NCBI GenBank assembly: GCA_016933695.1
Contig: JAFGAL010000001.1
Span: 124,001-188,000 of the forward strand
DNA: 64,000 nt
Source: Candidatus Zixiibacteriota bacterium
GTDB taxonomy: Bacteria; Zixibacteria; MSB-5A5; GN15; PGXB01
Direction: 5' to 3'
Part shown: positions 31,683-43,394 of the stretch, in pieces
Numbering within the stretch: position 1 is the first letter of the stretch
How the letters are laid out: every line of letters starts with the position of its first letter
Position numbers and translations under genes: made by a program
Notes under the pieces: model-generated
Databases searched by the model: none
What the model saw: only the letters and a program-made list of their open reading frames with translations
What the model was told of the DNA's origin: nothing

Positions 31683-32753
31683 TTAAACCGAGGCGGGACT
31701 GGAAACCTGTTTTTTTACATCATACATGGCGCGATCGGCCCGGTCGATCAGAATGTCCATGTCATCAAACATATCCGGCCCGGTCTGCACAATACCGATA
31801 CTCAACGAAAACGCGGCAAAGCGTCTGGTGAAGTCTTTTTGGATGCGGTCGCAATACCGGGCGGCTTCGGACTCGGCGGTGTTGGGCAGGATCACGCAAA
31901 ACTCATCGCCGCCGAAACGACAGGGAATATCGGTCTCCCGCGACAGCGAAAGCAAAATCGCCCCGATATTGCGAAGCACGTCGTCGCCCTTCTGGTGACC
32001 GAAGGCATCATTGATATGCTTGAATCGATCGACATCGAAATACACCAGACTCAACGGTGTTTTATTGCGCTCCGCCAGCGCCAGGTCACGGCGGAGAAAT
32101 TCCTGAAACGAACGTTTGTTATACAGCCCGGTCAACCCGTCGCGACGGGACAACTCCTCGAGTTCGCGCGTGCGTTCGGCGACTTTTTTCTCGAGATGGC
32201 GCGCGTATCCCTCGGTTTTTTCCCTGGCGATTTCGACCTGGGACATCAAACTGCGAATGTACGCATCGATTACCAGTTGCGTGTCGAAATGGAGGATTTT
32301 CTCCAGCGCGGCAAATAGTTCATCGCGTCCGGAGTCCTCTTCGACAAACCGCTCCAGATGGTTTTGCAAAATGGTCTTGAGATTCCATACCGCGGTGAGA
32401 TACTGATTCGATTCGACGCCGATCCGCCGATGCACCATCCCCACCCGCAAACGATTGTTGACATAGGCCGCGTCGTAAAACCCGCCGAACAATTCCACCA
32501 GATATTGTTTCATGGTTCTATGCATGCGGCGCAGCGTGTCGGCGTCGCCGATCAACACCGCCATGTCATCATTGGCGGCGAGAACATCATAAAACGCCGC
32601 GGCGATCCGCTCGGTATTCTGACGGATGAATTCCTTGCATCCGGCAAGCAGTTCGACATCACGGGCGGTAATGCCAAGCAGTCGTTTGCGGCGGTCGATA
32701 TCGAGTTCATCGATCCGCATCTGTTCCATCAGGGTCTGGTCAAGCAGTCGCAT
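31683..32753 (-). CDS. Diguanylate cyclase with N-terminal globin-coupled sensor domain
   Basis: Globin-like VNNRLRVGMVHRRIGVESNQYLTAVWNL (putative proximal His); GGDEF motif FGGDEF; RETD I-site 5 aa upstream. Start at 32753 favoured (GGGAG RBS) over GTG 32849. Confidence 0.88.
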   Translation of the reverse strand: MRLLDQTLMEQMRIDELDIDRRKRLLGITARDVELLAGCKEFIRQNTERIAAAFYDVLAANDDMAVLIGDADTLRRMHRTMKQYLVELFGGFYDAAYVNNRLRVGMVHRRIGVESNQYLTAVWNLKTILQNHLERFVEEDSGRDELFAALEKILHFDTQLVIDAYIRSLMSQVEIAREKTEGYARHLEKKVAERTRELEELSRRDGLTGLYNKRSFQEFLRRDLALAERNKTPLSLVYFDVDRFKHINDAFGHQKGDDVLRNIGAILLSLSRETDIPCRFGGDEFCVILPNTAESEAARYCDRIQKDFTRRFAAFSLSIGIVQTGPDMFDDMDILIDRADRAMYDVKKQVSSPASV

Positions 32754-32890
32754 TTCCGTCTCCCATGCGGCAATTGCGGTTATTGGCAACACATCCAAGG
32801 CGGGTTTTTCCGCGAAAGACACGAGCCTTACCGTTGTTTTTCGGTTCACCGCGCGATTTATTAAGGCCAGGATGGGCCGATATCATCCAT

Positions 32891-32945: not shown

Positions 32946-35177
32946 TTAGAAATCGAATTGAATGCCTGTGCGAATTATGAACAACGAACCCGATTCGATC
33001 CCATAGACATATCCCTGATTGTCGGTCAGGTCGGCGTAATCGGCATCGGCCGTCAGCCGCACCCCCGGCGAAACCTCATAGGCGATGCCCAAAGAGAACT
33101 GGATCAGTTCATAGTCCAGATCGGAATAATCCGGCATTTCGGTAAACTCGAATTTCTCCGGATCGTTGCCGATTTCGCCCGGGAACACCGGATCGGCGGA
33201 GATTCGATCGGAAACATCGGGCATGGTAACCGACTTATATTCGGCAGTGGACTTGTTGTAGCCGATCGTCCCGACCAGGCGGACTTTCGGATCAGGCATG
33301 AAACTGGCGGTAAAATACACATTGTGCGCGTTCGACTCGTAGTCGGCCATGGTAAACTCGGAACCATAGTGCCGCGCTTCCGGACCGTCACCACCGGTGA
33401 CGGTAGCAATGCCGGCCGCTCAGCCGTCGAACAGCGCCACGGCGACCGGTCCCCGGGATTTATAATAACCGAACGTGTAGCCGGTCAGCACCGACCATTT
33501 CGGACTGGGATTCAGGGTCAGGTTGGCGTGGGGCCGCAGTGACAGATGTTTGACATCCAGCGAGTCCAGATCACCGTTCTTGTCATACTGCCCTTTCACA
33601 CCAAACATGATACTGGTCTTCATGGTCGGCCGATAAGTCGCACTGAACTCGAACATATGCGCATCGGTCGGTTGGGTCGTGATATTCTGATAGCGCAGGT
33701 TTTCGCGCAGATAGTACGAGAACAGGTATCCGGTGAACGTTCCGCCCGGAGTCACATCCGGTTCCATAATATCCCGCCCGGCCGCCTCAAACAGGCCGCG
33801 GAACGAACGGAAGGGAGCGGAGGTTTTCTCGAACCGGTACTTGATCATGTTCGAGTACCGCAGTCCCTTGCGATAGCGGATTTTGGCCTGACCGTAGAAT
33901 TTGTCGGTCTTATAATGCTCGTCGATCGTTGGGTAGTCGTACCGGTCGACATGATTGTACCCCGCCATCACGCTTACCGTCGTTTGTGGTGAAACCCGTG
34001 AGATCACCTCGGCGGATGCTTTCGCGTCGGCCCGATCCAGAACGGAATACCGCACGAAATCGAAATTGGTAATCGCCGCTTCGGTATTGGTACCGTCCAT
34101 TCCCTCGCGATAGTCGGCCAGATCGATAAACGGATCGTCTGAGGTCAGCCGCGTTCCGGCGATTTTGGCGATCAGACGGGTTCGTTGCGCCAGCAGCATG
34201 GTATAACTGGCCGCACCGGTCCAGGCATCCGCCTCCAGATCGGTGCCCTTGTTTTTAGCGATACTGTAGCCGATCGAACTGGAAAACCGTCCCTTGCCGA
34301 TATCCCCCTTGAACCGCAGTTTGTGGGACATCTTCTGCGTTTCGGGATAAGTGCCGTACGCCATCGTGGTGTCATCGTAATTCAACCGTGAGGCGAACTC
34401 ACTCTGACTTCCGCCGGTCATCGGATGCTGGGCGTTGTCGTAATACGCCGTGACATCCTCGGCCCTGGAGTCAAAATAGCGAAACCCGAACTGGTAGCCG
34501 ACCGTGAAATCGGAAACATCGGCCTGAATACCGGTCTGGAACTGATGCGTCTGCCGGTCGACATCCATCGTTTTCGACGTCAGATGACAGCTGAAGCAGT
34601 GGTTCGATGCGACTTTCTGTTCTTCGCCTTTCTTGAATATCGACCGATGCGCGACCATCATGCGGATATTGTTCTTCCGCGACAGCAGGATATCGACATC
34701 GGTGCCCGCCTCGAAACGATGCGTGTTATAATCCGCGCCGAGATCCTGAATTTCATGTGAAAGGATTTTTCCGCCGGGATCGCCGGCCGCGGTCATTTCG
34801 CGGGCCGCCATGTTCGCCAGCAAATCCTGACCATCCTGGCGGATCATCGAGCGGCAGTACGCCATGCCGCGGAAGCGATCGCCGAATATCCCGGTGATCA
34901 TCCCGTCGATATTTTTCTGATCGAAATAATGCCCGTCCACCGTGATCAACTTGTCGACGTCACGGTACTGATAGACCCCCTTGAATTCCGGCAGAAACTC
35001 GTCATTGCCGAGATTGTACTCACCGACTTTCTTGGCGTAATCAGTCAGGCTGGTATAATGCGAACCGACCCAGATCGAATAGTTCTGCACCGGTTCGCTG
35101 TCCCGGGCGCTCGCCGCAACGGTCATGACAACGAGGGCCGACAGGACACACAATGCAATCATGGACTTATGCTTCAT
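32946..35177 (-). CDS. MtrB/PioB-like decahaem-associated outer-membrane beta-barrel, interrupted by one in-frame UGA (candidate Sec) at 33420-33422
   Basis: ORFs 33420..35177 (585 aa) and 32946..33350 are in the same frame, with no other stop between them: ...YYKSRGPVAVALFDG[UGA]AAGIATVTGGDGPEARHYGSEFTMADYESNAHNVYFTASF... The terminal aromatic of a beta-barrel (GIQFDF*) exists only downstream of the UGA. Next to a DmsE-like decahaem gene. Confidence 0.75.
33380..33415 (-). promoter_or_regulatory. Putative bacterial SECIS-like element downstream of the in-frame UGA
   Basis: mRNA after UGA: GCGG CCGG CAUUGCU ACCGUCACC GGU GGUGACGGU CCGG; wait-free pairing is CCGG(5-8)/CCGG(37-40) lower stem and ACCGUCACC/GGUGACGGU upper stem with GGU loop, first loop G 25 nt after the UGA. 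Confidence 0.4.
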
Positions 35178-35186
35178 GCCTCCCTC

Positions 35187-36149
35187 CTATCTCGTTAAGG
35201 CGTTGCCGGACGTGGACAGGGCCTGCGACGGCAGATCCGATCCGTGAACTTCGGCATGACACTGCGTGCACTTGGTCAGCATGCCTTTCTTCCAGCCGTC
35301 GGTGGTGGACACGATCGTGCGGTCGTTGGCCTCCGTGGTCTCATCCAGACCGACGACCGTGGCGTGGAAGTGCATGGCGTGGCAGTTCAGGCACAGTGCC
35401 GGTTCCGATTGCACCAGCAGGTTGTCGGACACCGACCCGTGCGGGGTGTGGCAGATGGAGCAGTCCTCCATCACCGGGGCGTGTTCGTACACGAACGGCC
35501 CCTCTTTGTCGGCGTGACAGGTGAAACACATCTCGCGCCCGGTGTTGTCCTGCACCAGTCGCGCCTCGCCACCGTGGACACCGTGGCAGTCCAGACAGGA
35601 TAGTTTGCCCTCGCGGACGGGGTGATGCGACGGCATGAACGACTCCGCGCGGATGTCGGCATGGCAGGTGTAGCACAACTCCGGCGGCCGGTTTGCCATG
35701 GCCGCTTCGGGCGAGGCATGGATGGTGTGACAGCTGGAGCAATTCAGATCCGCGGCCTGATGATGCGAAAACGACCAGTCATCGAATTCCGGCGTATTGT
35801 GGCATCCCAGACACAGCGGGCTGTCCTCGAACTGGTCGGCGGTGGCCGGATTGGTAATCAATGCCGGATCGGCTTCCTCGATATGTGCCGAGCCGGGCCC
35901 GTGGCAGGATTCGCAGGACACGGCACCCCGCGAGTCGTCGGCCGCATACGCCAGTCCGTGGACGGTTTTTTGAAAGGCCTCCCCGATTTCATCGTGGCAA
36001 TCCAGACAGGTGGCGCTTCCGACAAAGGCCGCATCAGGCGGCGCCTTGCCGTCCGCCGGGATCGCGACCCAGGTCAGGAGGGCGATCACCAGCATACCCT
36101 GCAGGATTCCCGTGACAAGAGCGGGGTGTTTCTCTCCCATTCTCCTCAT
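35187..36149 (-). CDS. DmsE/MtrA-family periplasmic decahaem c-type cytochrome
   Basis: Ten CXXCH motifs counted (CLDCH, CESCH, CLGCH, CSSCH, CYTCH, CLDCH, CFTCH, CSICH, CLNCH, CTQCH). Start at ATG 36149 has a GGGGGA RBS; the ORF extends to 36176. Confidence 0.92.
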   Translation of the reverse strand: MRRMGEKHPALVTGILQGMLVIALLTWVAIPADGKAPPDAAFVGSATCLDCHDEIGEAFQKTVHGLAYAADDSRGAVSCESCHGPGSAHIEEADPALITNPATADQFEDSPLCLGCHNTPEFDDWSFSHHQAADLNCSSCHTIHASPEAAMANRPPELCYTCHADIRAESFMPSHHPVREGKLSCLDCHGVHGGEARLVQDNTGREMCFTCHADKEGPFVYEHAPVMEDCSICHTPHGSVSDNLLVQSEPALCLNCHAMHFHATVVGLDETTEANDRTIVSTTDGWKKGMLTKCTQCHAEVHGSDLPSQALSTSGNALTR

Positions 36150-36182
36150 ACATTCCCCCGAGCTATTTATATGCATTGGTTC

Positions 36183-36800
36183 TTACTTTTTATCCGACGG
36201 AATCATCAGGCCCCTGGCGAAAATCGGGATATTGTTATCCATCACGATATCCGGCGTGAATTTCTTGCCCTGCATGCGGTTCCAGAGACTTTGCCCCATC
36301 GTGCAATCCATTACCATGCCCACGAAACAGCGGGCGGTAATAATGGGATTCACCTTTCGTATTTGGCGTTGTTTGATCAGGCGCGCCAGGGCTTCTCCCA
36401 GAATTTTAATATACGGCGCCCGAACCATGGCGAACACTCTTCCCGACATGGTATGTCGTTCCAGAGATGAATAGAGAAGAAGCCGCGATAACTCCTTGTG
36501 ACCAAGATAGGTGTCAAAAATATGCTTCGCAACCGCAAAAAGCAGGACCTCGACATCATCGATTTTCGCCAGTTGCCGCTTGAGATCATCAAGGAGGACT
36601 TTGCTTTCCAGCGATTTCAACACCTCGTCATACAGTTTTTCCTTGCTGGCAAAATGACGATACAGCGCCGGTTCGGTAATGCCGCAGGCTTTGGCCAGCA
36701 TTTTGACTGTCATGCGGTCGAATCCGTACCGGGCGAACAGCGTGGTCGCCTTGGTGACGATTTGTTTCCGTCGCAAATCCGAGGCCAGGCGTTTACTCAT
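36183..36800 (-). CDS. TetR/AcrR family transcriptional regulator
   Basis: KATTLFARYGFDRMTVKMLAKACGITEPALYRHFASKEKLYDEV. Confidence 0.92.
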   Translation of the reverse strand: MSKRLASDLRRKQIVTKATTLFARYGFDRMTVKMLAKACGITEPALYRHFASKEKLYDEVLKSLESKVLLDDLKRQLAKIDDVEVLLFAVAKHIFDTYLGHKELSRLLLYSSLERHTMSGRVFAMVRAPYIKILGEALARLIKQRQIRKVNPIITARCFVGMVMDCTMGQSLWNRMQGKKFTPDIVMDNNIPIFARGLMIPSDKK

Positions 36801-37821: not shown

Positions 37822-40647
37822 TCACCGGTAGCCGAAGATCTCCGCCCAGATAATCAGCAGAATCAGCGACAAACCGATACACAGCGCGATCGTGCCGAAA
37901 ACCCTCATCCCGCGCACCACCACCGGCGGAAGCGGCTCCACCAGATGCTTTTTGATTTCGCGGGTTTTCATCAATTCCTCGTATTCGCGCGGACGGTCCT
38001 CTTTTAATTCTTCCAGCGGGACCCGTCCCGTGAAAATCACCGTGTCCATCGGGAATTTGTCCGGGCGGAAATGCGTGTTGAAGAAATGCACCGTAAAGAT
38101 AAACGCGGTTGCCAGCAGGGCTTCGTCGGAGTGAATGATGGTCGCGACGTTAATGATCCATCCCGGCAGAAACCGTGTGAAGAATTCCGGGAACCAGAGC
38201 ATCAGCCCGGTGGTGCCGATCACTATAACGCCCCAGAACACCGCAAAATAGTCGAATTTCTCCCAGTAGGTCCAGCGCCCGTAACGCGGCCGCGGTCCCG
38301 CGCCGACAAACCATTTCAACGTGCCGACAAACTCGCGCCAGTCGGTGCGATTGGGAAGCATCGACTCGCGTTTGAACAGCATGTGCCGCCAGCTCAGCCC
38401 GGTTTTGAGTTTGATGCGGATCAAATCGAAAATATGCATGCCGAAATACGCGAACGTGATAATGGCGCAGAGACGGTGGATGTATCCGGCCGATTCGAAA
38501 CCGCCCAGCACCCCGGACAGCCATTGCGCCCAGCCGAGATACGAGAATTTCAGCGTCATACCGGTAACCGCCAGCCCCAGAAAACTGATAATGACCATGA
38601 AATGCAGGCGGCTGTGCAGTGACGTGAACCGACGGTACTCCAGCCTTCCTTTCCAGGCGGCGCGACGTTTGCGGTTCTCGCGCATCATCTGGAACGAGCG
38701 CGGCAACCACATCAGCGTATGCGTTCCGGCTACCGCCAGGGTTCCCACCAGCAAAATGGTCATGAACCAGAAGGTATAAAACAAGATCGGGTATTTATTC
38801 TTGTCATGATGCGTGGCATGGGTTAGATACCCCGCAAACTGCCGGTGCGAACCGGGGTGACAGGCCCCGCAGGTGGCCACGATATTCTGGCGGGACAGCA
38901 TCGAATGCGGATTTTCCGGCGGCAGGATGTTATGCGCCCCGTGGCAGTCATAACACTTGGCGGCGGCGGAGTATCCCAGCTTGGATACTTTGCCGTGGAA
39001 CGTCTCGAAGTACGATTCGGTCACCTCGCGATGACATCCGCCGCACTGATTCATGATTTCGGCGCGGAAGCCGTCGGAATCGGTCCGCACGATGGCATGC
39101 GACTCATGACAATCACTGCAAATCGGAAGCGGTTCGTCCGCGTCGGACACTTCCGGCGAATGAATACTCCTGGTGAATTCTTCATAAATCCCCTTGTGGC
39201 ATTCGGCGCAGGTTTGCGCCATATTGGCCCGGTGCACGCTCGATGCCGGATCGTCTTTGGGAAGCACATGATGGGCGGTGTGGCAATCGGTGCACTTGGC
39301 GGTCACCACCAAGCCGCTTTTCTTGAGGCCGATTCCGTGAATGCCTTCCAGGTAACTGCTGACCGGATCAAGTTCCCTCTCGCCCATCGATGTGACGGCC
39401 ACACCACCCTCGCCGTGGCATCGCCCGCACAGATCCGGAACCGCCGTCGGGAACGTCGGCGAATACGGATCGCGATGCGCTTTGACACGGTGCGCTCCGT
39501 GGCAGTCGACACATTCCGGGGCACGTTGATCGCCGCGATCGGCCAGTTTACCGTGCGTGCTTTCATGGTACAGCACCACCTCTTCACTGTGGCAGATCGA
39601 GCAGTCCACCCGATCTGCGACGGTTGCGCAGGGTCGGTCATGACTGCGGGTGGCGCCGGTATGGCACTGGGCGCAACTGACCGTGCGATGGATCGAACCG
39701 TGCGTTTCCAGCGTGTCGACATACATCGACACTGTCTCGCCGTCGCGGACCGCGGTCACATTCCTGTTGGCATGACATTTCAGACAATCCTTGTCGGCCA
39801 TCCCCTCTTCGTAGAACACGCGTCGAATTTCATGCGGGGCATGGCAGTCGACACAGGCCGGCACCTTGTTCGGCTCTTTTTCCCACAATTCGCCGCGAAT
39901 GACTTTCTGGTGCACCTGTTCGATCCGTCCGTGGCACTGCTGGCACATGGTCGCGACATTGTCGCGATGAATGGTCGAGCGCGGATCGGTATGCGGCAGA
40001 ACCGAATGCGCGGTATGGCAGTCGCCGCAGACGGCGGTGACGGTCAGTCCCTGTTTGAACAGCCCGATACCGTGAATACTCTGCGAATAATGACTGAGGA
40101 TACTGTCCTGTGGAATATCATAAGTGCGGGTGACGGCCGTACCCTCCTTGTGACATCGCCCGCACATGAACGGGATATTGAATTTGGCGGTGCGGGAATC
40201 CGGCGCGGATGCGCCCATAATATCATGTGCGCCATGACAGTCCCAGCAATGCGGGGCCAGCTTCTCACCTTTGGCCACCGACTGCCCGTGCAGACTCCGG
40301 GCGTACTCCCCCGCGATATCATCGTGACACAATCCGCAATCGACCGGTGCGAGGTTTTCCGCGTGCGGCAGTTCGGCATCCATCAAATCGGCATGGCACC
40401 CGATGCATTCGACATCGACATGTTTCGACGCGTTGAATTTCGCCAGGTCGATATACAGCGACACCTCATGCCCGCCGCGTTCCTTGGTCAGGTCGGGATC
40501 CTCATGACACATCATGCAGTCATCGACCGACTGCGCGAAAGATCTCGGCGCCGAACCGAACAGCAGTACAAGCACCAGCAGGCATACCGCTCCCGCTTTG
40601 CCCATACACCATAGACTTTTTCTGTCCTGATTAAGCCGCCCGTTCAC
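37822..40647 (-). CDS. 19-haem c-type cytochrome fused to a b-type (FdnI/HydC-like) membrane domain, CbcL-like architecture
   Basis: Nineteen CXXCH motifs counted; C-terminal four-TM cytochrome b-like region (RLHFMVIISFLGLAVTGMTLKFS..., FFNTHFRPDKFPMDTVIFTGRV). ATG at 40605 is an alternative start with a better signal peptide. Confidence 0.9.
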   Translation of the reverse strand: MNGRLNQDRKSLWCMGKAGAVCLLVLVLLFGSAPRSFAQSVDDCMMCHEDPDLTKERGGHEVSLYIDLAKFNASKHVDVECIGCHADLMDAELPHAENLAPVDCGLCHDDIAGEYARSLHGQSVAKGEKLAPHCWDCHGAHDIMGASAPDSRTAKFNIPFMCGRCHKEGTAVTRTYDIPQDSILSHYSQSIHGIGLFKQGLTVTAVCGDCHTAHSVLPHTDPRSTIHRDNVATMCQQCHGRIEQVHQKVIRGELWEKEPNKVPACVDCHAPHEIRRVFYEEGMADKDCLKCHANRNVTAVRDGETVSMYVDTLETHGSIHRTVSCAQCHTGATRSHDRPCATVADRVDCSICHSEEVVLYHESTHGKLADRGDQRAPECVDCHGAHRVKAHRDPYSPTFPTAVPDLCGRCHGEGGVAVTSMGERELDPVSSYLEGIHGIGLKKSGLVVTAKCTDCHTAHHVLPKDDPASSVHRANMAQTCAECHKGIYEEFTRSIHSPEVSDADEPLPICSDCHESHAIVRTDSDGFRAEIMNQCGGCHREVTESYFETFHGKVSKLGYSAAAKCYDCHGAHNILPPENPHSMLSRQNIVATCGACHPGSHRQFAGYLTHATHHDKNKYPILFYTFWFMTILLVGTLAVAGTHTLMWLPRSFQMMRENRKRRAAWKGRLEYRRFTSLHSRLHFMVIISFLGLAVTGMTLKFSYLGWAQWLSGVLGGFESAGYIHRLCAIITFAYFGMHIFDLIRIKLKTGLSWRHMLFKRESMLPNRTDWREFVGTLKWFVGAGPRPRYGRWTYWEKFDYFAVFWGVIVIGTTGLMLWFPEFFTRFLPGWIINVATIIHSDEALLATAFIFTVHFFNTHFRPDKFPMDTVIFTGRVPLEELKEDRPREYEELMKTREIKKHLVEPLPPVVVRGMRVFGTIALCIGLSLILLIIWAEIFGYR

Positions 40648-40740: not shown

Positions 40741-40856
40741 TTCTTTGTTGACGCCGGGATCAAAATGTCTTTATATTGTGGTGCAATTAATATGTAATCA
40801 TGGGGCAATATAGTCGTTGTGCCGCATACATCACCCAAAAAGGCAGGAGATTGTTT

Positions 40857-43394
40857 ATGAAAAAGTACATGATTAACGTCCGGAGGTCCTCCGCGGCGAT
40901 ACTGTTTTTGGTACTGATCGGGGCCGCCGTGTCAGCATTGGCTCAGCATCCCGCCATTTACCTGCTGGACAGCGAGGGTGAATTCATTAATCCCATGCAG
41001 GACGAAAATGCCGACAAACCGTTCAGCACCAAACAAACCTGCGGCATGTGTCATGACTACGACGAAATCTCCATGGCGTTTCATTTTCAGGTCGGCTGGG
41101 ATGTCATCAGCGACGATTTCGGCGATTCCACCGGCAAACCATGGAACCTGTCCAACGGCATGATGGGTAAATGGTGTCCCATGTATTTCCGCCAGCTTGC
41201 GAAAAAGGAGAATGAACATGAGGATGAAATCGACCTGACGGTGTACGACTTTGTCGGATTCTCCGCCGAGGGGGACCATCCCCCGTGCGGGGCGTGTCAT
41301 GCCGGCGGCGGCGGAATGGAATACGACCGTGAAGGCAATCGCTATGACGAATACCTTGCCGAAAACCCCGAACTGCGCGAAACACTTGACGGCGATTATC
41401 ACAACAGCAACTGGGACAAAAGCGGCGTGGTGGAGGTCGACTGCCTGATCTGCCATCTGGAGGGATACAGTTTCGACGAACGTATCGCCCAGCTCGAGGA
41501 AGGCAATTATCGCTGGGCGGTCGTGCAGGCGTCGCGCCTCGGCTTTGTCGACGGATCGGTGCGGCGTGGCGGCGAACCGACCGTGACCTACAACAAGCGG
41601 TTTTTCAACGAGGACGGCACGATCACGATGAAAATGTCGTGGCCGCCGCCGGACGACAACTGCGTATTCTGTCACGGACGGGCCGACGTGCGCAAGCGCG
41701 GGTTTTCGTGGAATGATATTTTCAATCCCGACATTCACAATCAGCAGGGGGTCAGTTGCGTGGCCTGCCACCCGGCGGGGTCGGATCATCAGATCGCCAA
41801 GGGCAACGCCAATGCATTGATGGTCGCCAACGATCTCGACAACACCATGCTGACCTGTGCAGAGTGTCATGAAGGGGGCGTCCTCGGCGCCACCGTTCCC
41901 CGGCATCACAGCGTGCGGCCGTCTCACCTGCAGGCGATTTCCTGCGAGGCGTGCCATATTCCCAGTTTGAAACGCGCGGCGGCACTCGGTATGGATCCGC
42001 TGACCGGGTCGATTTCGTTCGCGACCAATCCCCTCGGTGCAAAGGAATTCGGCGAACGCGCGGAATGGAAACCGGTGTACAATCGCCGCAATGGTCATAA
42101 GATTTATCCGCTTAACAGCATGCAGGCGACGTTCTGGTGCAACTTCGACACAGACAGCCTGCTCTACCCGCTATTCCTTCGTGAACATGTAGCGGGATGG
42201 GATTTATTCTCCGACCAGGTAACCGATGACGACGAGGACGGCGAACCGGAAGTCAACACGGATGAGGAGATAATCGCCGGTCTGAAAGCGTTCAGTCAGT
42301 CACTGCAGGACAATCAGCGCTTTACGCAAGTTCACCCGGCACTGGTGAAAGGCGGCAAAGCGTATCACCTGGGCGACGACGGGACCCTGCAAGAGCTGGA
42401 TTACGACGTGTTGCCGTGCATCAGTTATTCCATCAACCACAACGTGGCGCCGGCCCGAATGGCGCTGGGGTACAACGGATGCGGCGACTGCCATGAGTCC
42501 GACAGCCACTTTTTCAAGGGACGCCGCGTGATCGATTTGCACGGGGCCGACGGCAAACCGGTGACCGAGGCGATCGGCCGGGAGCTGGGATGCAGTCCCG
42601 TTTCGTTCGCGGTCAATTCGTTCCACCAGTCATTCCTCAGCCCGATGATCAGTATCGGCATTATCCTGGTGGTATTTTTAATGACGTTGCACTATCACAG
42701 TTACGGACCGAAGCGAATCCCGTTCGTACCGTACACCGGCGAGGTCAAACGCTTTTCATTGTACGAACGCGGCATTCACTTGTTCCGTCTGTTGTCGTTC
42801 GTGCTGTTGACCATCACGGGGCTGATTCTGGCGTTTAACTGGAGCGACTGGCAACAGCTACTATTCCGGTCACCGCAACAACTGCTCTGGGTGCATATCG
42901 TTGCGGGAATCGTCTTCATCCTGACCACGATCCTCGGGATTTTCGCCTGGTTCCGCGATGCCATTTTCGCCTCGTATGACAAAGTCTGGGTGCAAAGAAT
43001 CGGCGGGTATCTCGGTCACAAGGGCCATGTTCCTTCCGGACGGTTCAATGCCGGGCAGAAAATGTTTTTCTGGTACACTGCCATTTTCGGATTGCTGATG
43101 TCGGCAACCGGCCTGATTCTCATTTTCAAGCCCTGGTTTTCGCTATCGGTCATCTGTATGACCTCCACGATTCACAACCTGGTCGGTTTCTTCCTGATTG
43201 CGGGCGTGCTGTCTCATGCCTATCTGGGCACGGTGGCCAATCCCGGCACGTGGCGGGTGTTGGTGGATGGATATGTCACCTACGATTGGGCGCATCACCA
43301 TCACCCCAACTGGTACGCGATGCTTCGCGAGAAGGGGCTGGTCCCGAAAGACCACGGTGACATGCACGACAACGATTCGGAGACGTCGGCTTAA
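40857..43394 (+). CDS. Octahaem c-type cytochrome fused to a b-type membrane domain
   Basis: Eight CXXCH counted (CGMCH, CGACH, CLICH, CVFCH, CVACH, CAECH, CEACH, CGDCH); C-terminal TM cytochrome b-like domain. Start refined to ATG 40857. Confidence 0.88.
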   Translation: MKKYMINVRRSSAAILFLVLIGAAVSALAQHPAIYLLDSEGEFINPMQDENADKPFSTKQTCGMCHDYDEISMAFHFQVGWDVISDDFGDSTGKPWNLSNGMMGKWCPMYFRQLAKKENEHEDEIDLTVYDFVGFSAEGDHPPCGACHAGGGGMEYDREGNRYDEYLAENPELRETLDGDYHNSNWDKSGVVEVDCLICHLEGYSFDERIAQLEEGNYRWAVVQASRLGFVDGSVRRGGEPTVTYNKRFFNEDGTITMKMSWPPPDDNCVFCHGRADVRKRGFSWNDIFNPDIHNQQGVSCVACHPAGSDHQIAKGNANALMVANDLDNTMLTCAECHEGGVLGATVPRHHSVRPSHLQAISCEACHIPSLKRAAALGMDPLTGSISFATNPLGAKEFGERAEWKPVYNRRNGHKIYPLNSMQATFWCNFDTDSLLYPLFLREHVAGWDLFSDQVTDDDEDGEPEVNTDEEIIAGLKAFSQSLQDNQRFTQVHPALVKGGKAYHLGDDGTLQELDYDVLPCISYSINHNVAPARMALGYNGCGDCHESDSHFFKGRRVIDLHGADGKPVTEAIGRELGCSPVSFAVNSFHQSFLSPMISIGIILVVFLMTLHYHSYGPKRIPFVPYTGEVKRFSLYERGIHLFRLLSFVLLTITGLILAFNWSDWQQLLFRSPQQLLWVHIVAGIVFILTTILGIFAWFRDAIFASYDKVWVQRIGGYLGHKGHVPSGRFNAGQKMFFWYTAIFGLLMSATGLILIFKPWFSLSVICMTSTIHNLVGFFLIAGVLSHAYLGTVANPGTWRVLVDGYVTYDWAHHHHPNWYAMLREKGLVPKDHGDMHDNDSETSA

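Follow-up and report, generated by a model that had tools for sequence, protein, structure and literature searches.

An in-frame UGA in a gene for a large barrel protein

This locus raises the question of whether a TGA that splits an otherwise intact gene is a stop or a codon for selenocysteine (Sec), and, if the latter, what Sec might do in the protein. In the stretch of Candidatus Zixiibacteriota DNA that was analyzed (64,000 nucleotides; here, the window), two open reading frames on the minus strand, 33420..35177 and 32946..33350, lie in the same frame and are split by a lone TGA at 33422-33420, with no further stop. Reading through it yields a complete 743-aa product with the C-terminal sequence GIQFDF, encoded at 32949..35177 (minus strand; TAA stop at 32946-32948), in which the UGA (33420..33422) would specify Sec586. 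The 157 residues C-terminal of this position (32949..33419, minus strand) are kept in homologues and are predicted to form the final barrel strands. An earlier note, made by reading the window, had described this frame, and its account was correct to the base.

The assembly is a draft of 33 contigs that is 82% complete, and a lone UGA in such an assembly normally hints at a sequencing error (of a true TGG or TGC) or at a nonsense mutation in a pseudogene. We searched 134 genomes of the phylum and found homologues in 61. Nearly every copy that spans the UGA site has a single in-frame TGA and no other stop; the exception, G037, is further broken. A protein-guided alignment of the site contained 56 nonredundant sequences, i.e., that of the window and 55 homologues with 29 to 56% identity to it, and TGA occupies the same column in all of them (56/56). 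The earlier note had expected Cys or UGA at this column: UGA was found throughout, and neither Cys nor any other codon occurred in the 56 sequences, so the Cys-containing homologues that are usual, if not obligatory, for selenoproteins are absent here. Residues H603, G605, P653, S685, and G730, all past the UGA, are invariant, which argues that the C-terminal part is translated. Given the same TGA in sequences from separate genomes and conservation beyond it, the error and pseudogene readings are ruled out, with a residual probability that we consider negligible. The predicted Sec is thus invariant across the phylum, an observation new in this analysis.

A conserved hairpin downstream of the UGA

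The mRNA 3′ of the UGA reads GCGG-CCGG-CAUUGCU-ACCGUCACC-GGU-GGUGACGGU-CCGG and can form a hairpin resembling a bacterial Sec insertion element (bSECIS) at 33380..33415 (minus strand). ACCGUCACC and GGUGACGGU (33404-33396 and 33392-33384) pair into a 9-bp upper stem capped by the apical loop GGU (33395-33393), the two CCGG segments form a 4-bp lower stem, and the 7-nt bulge on the 5′ side has U as its last nucleotide. The UGA is separated from the loop by 24 nt, the first loop G being nucleotide 25. This geometry had been drawn in the earlier note, and RNAfold returned the identical structure at −30.9 kcal/mol (z = −2.4), a stability matched by 4 of 200 shuffled sequences. The bSECIS rules call for a hairpin 16 to 37 nt past the UGA, a loop of 3 to 9 nt with G among its first two nucleotides, and a stem of 4 to 16 bp; with 9 bp, a GGU loop, and a spacing of 24 nt, the window hairpin lies within all of these ranges.

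Among other positions in genes of the same family, 0.4% have a stem of at least 9 bp whose loop has G among its first two nucleotides, and minimum free energies of −24.2 kcal/mol or lower are reached at 0.2%. All nine pairs arise in 1.8% of synonymous recodings of the window hairpin stretch; under this synonymous null the window hairpin by itself is only moderately unusual, and the case for it depends on the family. Across the family, 76% of sequences have, after the UGA, a stem of 6 bp or more whose loop has G among its first two nucleotides; elsewhere in these genes, 7% of sites do. Forty-three sequences share the register, and every one of them forms pair 3, as AU (17), GC (11), UA (10), or CG (5); pairs 4 and 6 are likewise formed in 43/43. 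We compared the observed pairing with 1,000 synonymous recodings in which the protein was kept. With the register fixed, 295 pairs were observed versus 219 ± 7 in the null (maximum of 1,000, 241); with the best register chosen freely for observed and null sequences alike, the numbers were 332 versus 275 ± 6 (maximum of 1,000, 293). These sequences are related by descent, and the figures therefore express the strength of conservation rather than a number of independent events. As judged from these alignments, compensatory changes preserve the putative hairpin more than the protein requires; the predicted hairpin is far past chance in the single sequence and overwhelmingly so across relatives.

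The genome encodes selenocysteine machinery

The presence of selA, selB, selC, and selD was a check that the earlier note had proposed, and all have counterparts in this genome: tRNA-Sec (74.8 bits; cutoff, 47), selB (325.8 bits), selA (485.5 bits), which adjoins selB on contig C7, and selD (376 bits). The selD frame itself contains a UGA at SCAGU, in the motif SCAGUASK, which we take to be the usual Sec/Cys site of SelD. Among 40 relatives, 37 have selB over the cutoff. As a side observation, selD (L049:1401-2451, minus strand, contig C13) is a second predicted selenoprotein of this genome and may serve as an internal control for UGA recoding.

A conserved UGA followed by a conserved hairpin would also fit programmed readthrough, in which a near-cognate tRNA inserts Trp or another residue, or a reassigned codon, possibly with a truncated 585-aa form made as well. 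We regard this as improbable. The full Sec machinery, including tRNA-Sec, is encoded, the selD of the same genome has a UGA at a known Sec site, and the hairpin follows the spacing and loop rules of bSECIS elements. A reassigned codon would be expected to be scattered, but in homologues UGA occurs about once in 740 codons, and at one fixed site; a 585-aa product would lack five strands at the end of the modeled barrel (see below). From the invariant UGA, the covarying hairpin, the sel genes, and tRNA-Sec, we infer that Sec is inserted: the UGA at 33422-33420 almost certainly encodes selenocysteine, as the earlier note had proposed in preference to a nonsense mutation or an error. The hairpin 24 nt downstream would direct SelB and Sec-tRNA(Sec) to recode it.

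The barrel protein belongs to the GSU2204 family and resembles MtrB

The protein is well supported as a member of the GSU2204/OmcL family by profile comparison. NCBIfam NF041027, “GSU2204 family CXXCH-containing (seleno)protein,” matches residues 13 to 585 (E = 9.5e-171; 569.5 bits; cutoff, 350) over profile positions 3 to 580 of 580, with the match ending at the residue that precedes the UGA, and 47/47 aligned family members match this profile. Searches of the window protein against PF11854 and TIGR03509 gave no match; among the 47 family members, PF11854 is found in 10 at E ≤ 1 and TIGR03509 in 1. A sequence search of the PDB found no match to the protein, and neither did a search of plasmids.

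An AlphaFold2 model of the protein is a large β-barrel (pLDDT, 83), and its top match among solved structures is Shewanella MtrB (6r2q_B; E = 3e-21), with the next best at 4e-9. The window protein is thus predicted to be a large outer membrane barrel of the MtrB fold, which bears out the MtrB/PioB-like identity given in the earlier note.

One highly divergent fragment of the GSU2204 type (L076:1081-1770; 29% identity; FNGUAG) carries both the UGA and a hairpin in the corresponding place, after which its frame is broken; its assembly has 5% contamination, and the fragment is perhaps from another lineage. We considered it as a second subfamily of Sec-containing MtrB proteins and rejected this idea: the fragment matches the final 92 positions of NF041027 with 81.8 bits and, used as a query, finds only the GSU2204 family in the phylum. 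We read it as a probable divergent member of that family, possibly from a different lineage.

A decaheme cytochrome gene precedes the barrel gene

A gene for a decaheme c-type cytochrome of the GSU2203/OmcK family (35187..36176, minus strand; ten CXXCH motifs; NF041028 above its cutoff) ends 9 bases ahead of the barrel start. In nearly all loci with sufficient upstream DNA, an open reading frame with ten CXXCH motifs lies directly upstream of the barrel gene; the exceptions are L056, with four motifs, and the divergent L076. Because of the two family matches, the MtrB fold, and the decaheme neighbor, we take the pair to be an OmcK-OmcL (GSU2203-GSU2204) module, and we infer that the two proteins form a complex. 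The barrel and the decaheme OmcK-like cytochrome encoded upstream would make up an electron conduit, as MtrB sheathes MtrA. No gene for an outer, MtrC-like cytochrome adjoins the window copy.

Several other genes lie near the pair. In many relatives (L022, L025, L028, L030, L033, L043, L053, L071, and others), an open reading frame with 11 to 15 CXXCH motifs is found downstream of the barrel gene; it could encode an outer cytochrome, and the window copy is without one. Two large multiheme cytochromes are encoded in divergent orientation in the window near the conduit genes, at 37822-40647 (minus) and 40800-43394 (plus); both are fused to a formate dehydrogenase gamma-like, b-type membrane domain and are possibly inner membrane partners. 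Directly downstream of the barrel gene, 31683-32849 (minus) encodes a fusion of a protoglobin sensor domain and a GGDEF diguanylate cyclase, and a gene for a TetR-type regulator (36183-36800, minus) lies immediately 5′ of the decaheme gene, in the same orientation.

A possible role for Sec586

We consider it very probable that the window gene encodes a selenoprotein of the GSU2204/OmcL family, made by UGA recoding, which would act as an MtrB-like barrel conduit with its decaheme partner, Sec586 having a redox or ligand role as set out below. The protein has an invariant CXXCH motif (34584..34598, minus strand; C194, C197, and H198, with H193 also invariant), present in 51/51 covering sequences, and only three columns in the entire protein are invariant thiols or selenols: C194 and C197 of HCxxCH and U586. 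In the model, the CXXCH turn (residues 192 to 196) and the Sec loop (residues 584 to 602), which follows a long strand, are separated by 14 long strands; as this number is even, the two would share a barrel face. The restriction of invariant thiols and selenols to these columns and the predicted shared face are further additions of this analysis. Model confidence is lowest in the Sec loop (pLDDT, 44 to 52), and closeness of the two sites is suggested by strand parity alone.

The C terminus of outer membrane barrels is periplasmic. Five strands follow the Sec loop in the model, which puts the Sec face opposite the C terminus and points, with uncertainty, to the cell surface: the strand count is odd, with one N-terminal strand unaccounted for. 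Sec586 would take part in redox chemistry or act as a metal or heme ligand, most likely where electrons exit or enter the conduit. Our tentative proposal, which may well turn out to be wrong, is that Sec586 and the single CXXCH make up one functional center at the exit of a conduit of the OmcKL type, creating a selenium-dependent route of extracellular electron transfer in this phylum, in Geobacter, and in ANME-partner bacteria. Such a center could take the form of a heme at CXXCH with Sec nearby or of a selenol/dithiol switch.

A selenoprotein in which Sec is structural or binds metal, and does not transfer electrons, would differ from this proposal only in the role of Sec. Sec586 could share a metal site with C194, C197, H198, and H603, a selenenylsulfide could lock the barrel loops, or the barrel could be a porin for a metal or a small molecule. 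The invariant set, which includes C194, C197, H198, G585, U586, and H603, fits ligands as well as it fits a redox site, and, as a heme site, a single CXXCH within a barrel would be unusual. This alternative sits poorly with the decaheme gene that precedes the barrel gene in nearly all loci reached, with the downstream 11- to 15-heme frame in many of them, and with MtrB as the top fold match; moreover, GSU2203 and GSU2204 are up-regulated as a pair in Geobacter sulfurreducens with the iron oxides hematite and magnetite (PMC4070692). On balance, a structural or metal-binding Sec is possible but rather unlikely. As to the conduit that we prefer, an invariant Sec without a Cys substitute suggests that selenium is essential to its task, which would link selenium supply to extracellular electron transfer.

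Relation to known selenoproteins and electron conduits

The earlier note knew of no described MtrB/PioB porin with Sec; this was mistaken, as NF041027 and two reviews name the family. “MtrB/PioB family outer membrane beta-barrel protein” appears among selenoproteins in a 2022 review (PMC9312934), and the GSU2204 family, with NF041027, is given as a selenoprotein in a 2026 review (PMC13188914). Sec in Geobacter GSU2204 itself is indicated by the NCBIfam name and by PMC13188914. In the 2022 review, a 2008 paper (PMC2398784) is given as the source of the family; the main text of that paper has no mention of MtrB or the outer membrane. It is thus well supported that the GSU2204 family was already known as a predicted selenoprotein and that the window gene adds a member from a GN15-related lineage of a poorly studied phylum.

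The selenoprotein lists in both reviews assign the GSU2204 family no function. OmcK-OmcL is discussed as an extracellular electron transfer conduit in HotSeep-1 and Seep-SRB2 (PMC10553843), in a text in which the words selenocysteine and selenoprotein are absent. OmcK is GSU2203 (PMC4070692) and OmcL is its partner porin, so that OmcL is probably GSU2204. Joining the Sec annotation of NF041027 and the reviews to the OmcKL conduit is the new link of this analysis. Usual gene calling divides the barrel gene at the UGA, so that the final barrel strands are lost, and conduit genes like OmcL are easily miscalled.

The window protein shares its profile match, CXXCH, UGA, and decaheme neighbor with the NF041027/GSU2204 family; it comes from a phylum other than that of the Geobacter reference, and we found no difference in kind. 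The OmcKL conduits of G. sulfurreducens, HotSeep-1, and Seep-SRB2 have the same pair of genes, for a decaheme OmcK-like cytochrome and an OmcL-like barrel. The ExtKL selenocytochrome of Geobacter (GSU2937-2936; NF040886) is also a selenoprotein in an electron transfer gene cluster, but it is a multiheme cytochrome and not a barrel (PMC5877670). With Shewanella MtrB (6r2q_B) and PioB, the window protein has in common the fold (TM scores, 0.63/0.72) and a decaheme partner of the DmsE/MtrA type; in contrast, identity is 12%, PF11854 and TIGR03509 are not matched, and the window protein has the additional, predicted Sec.
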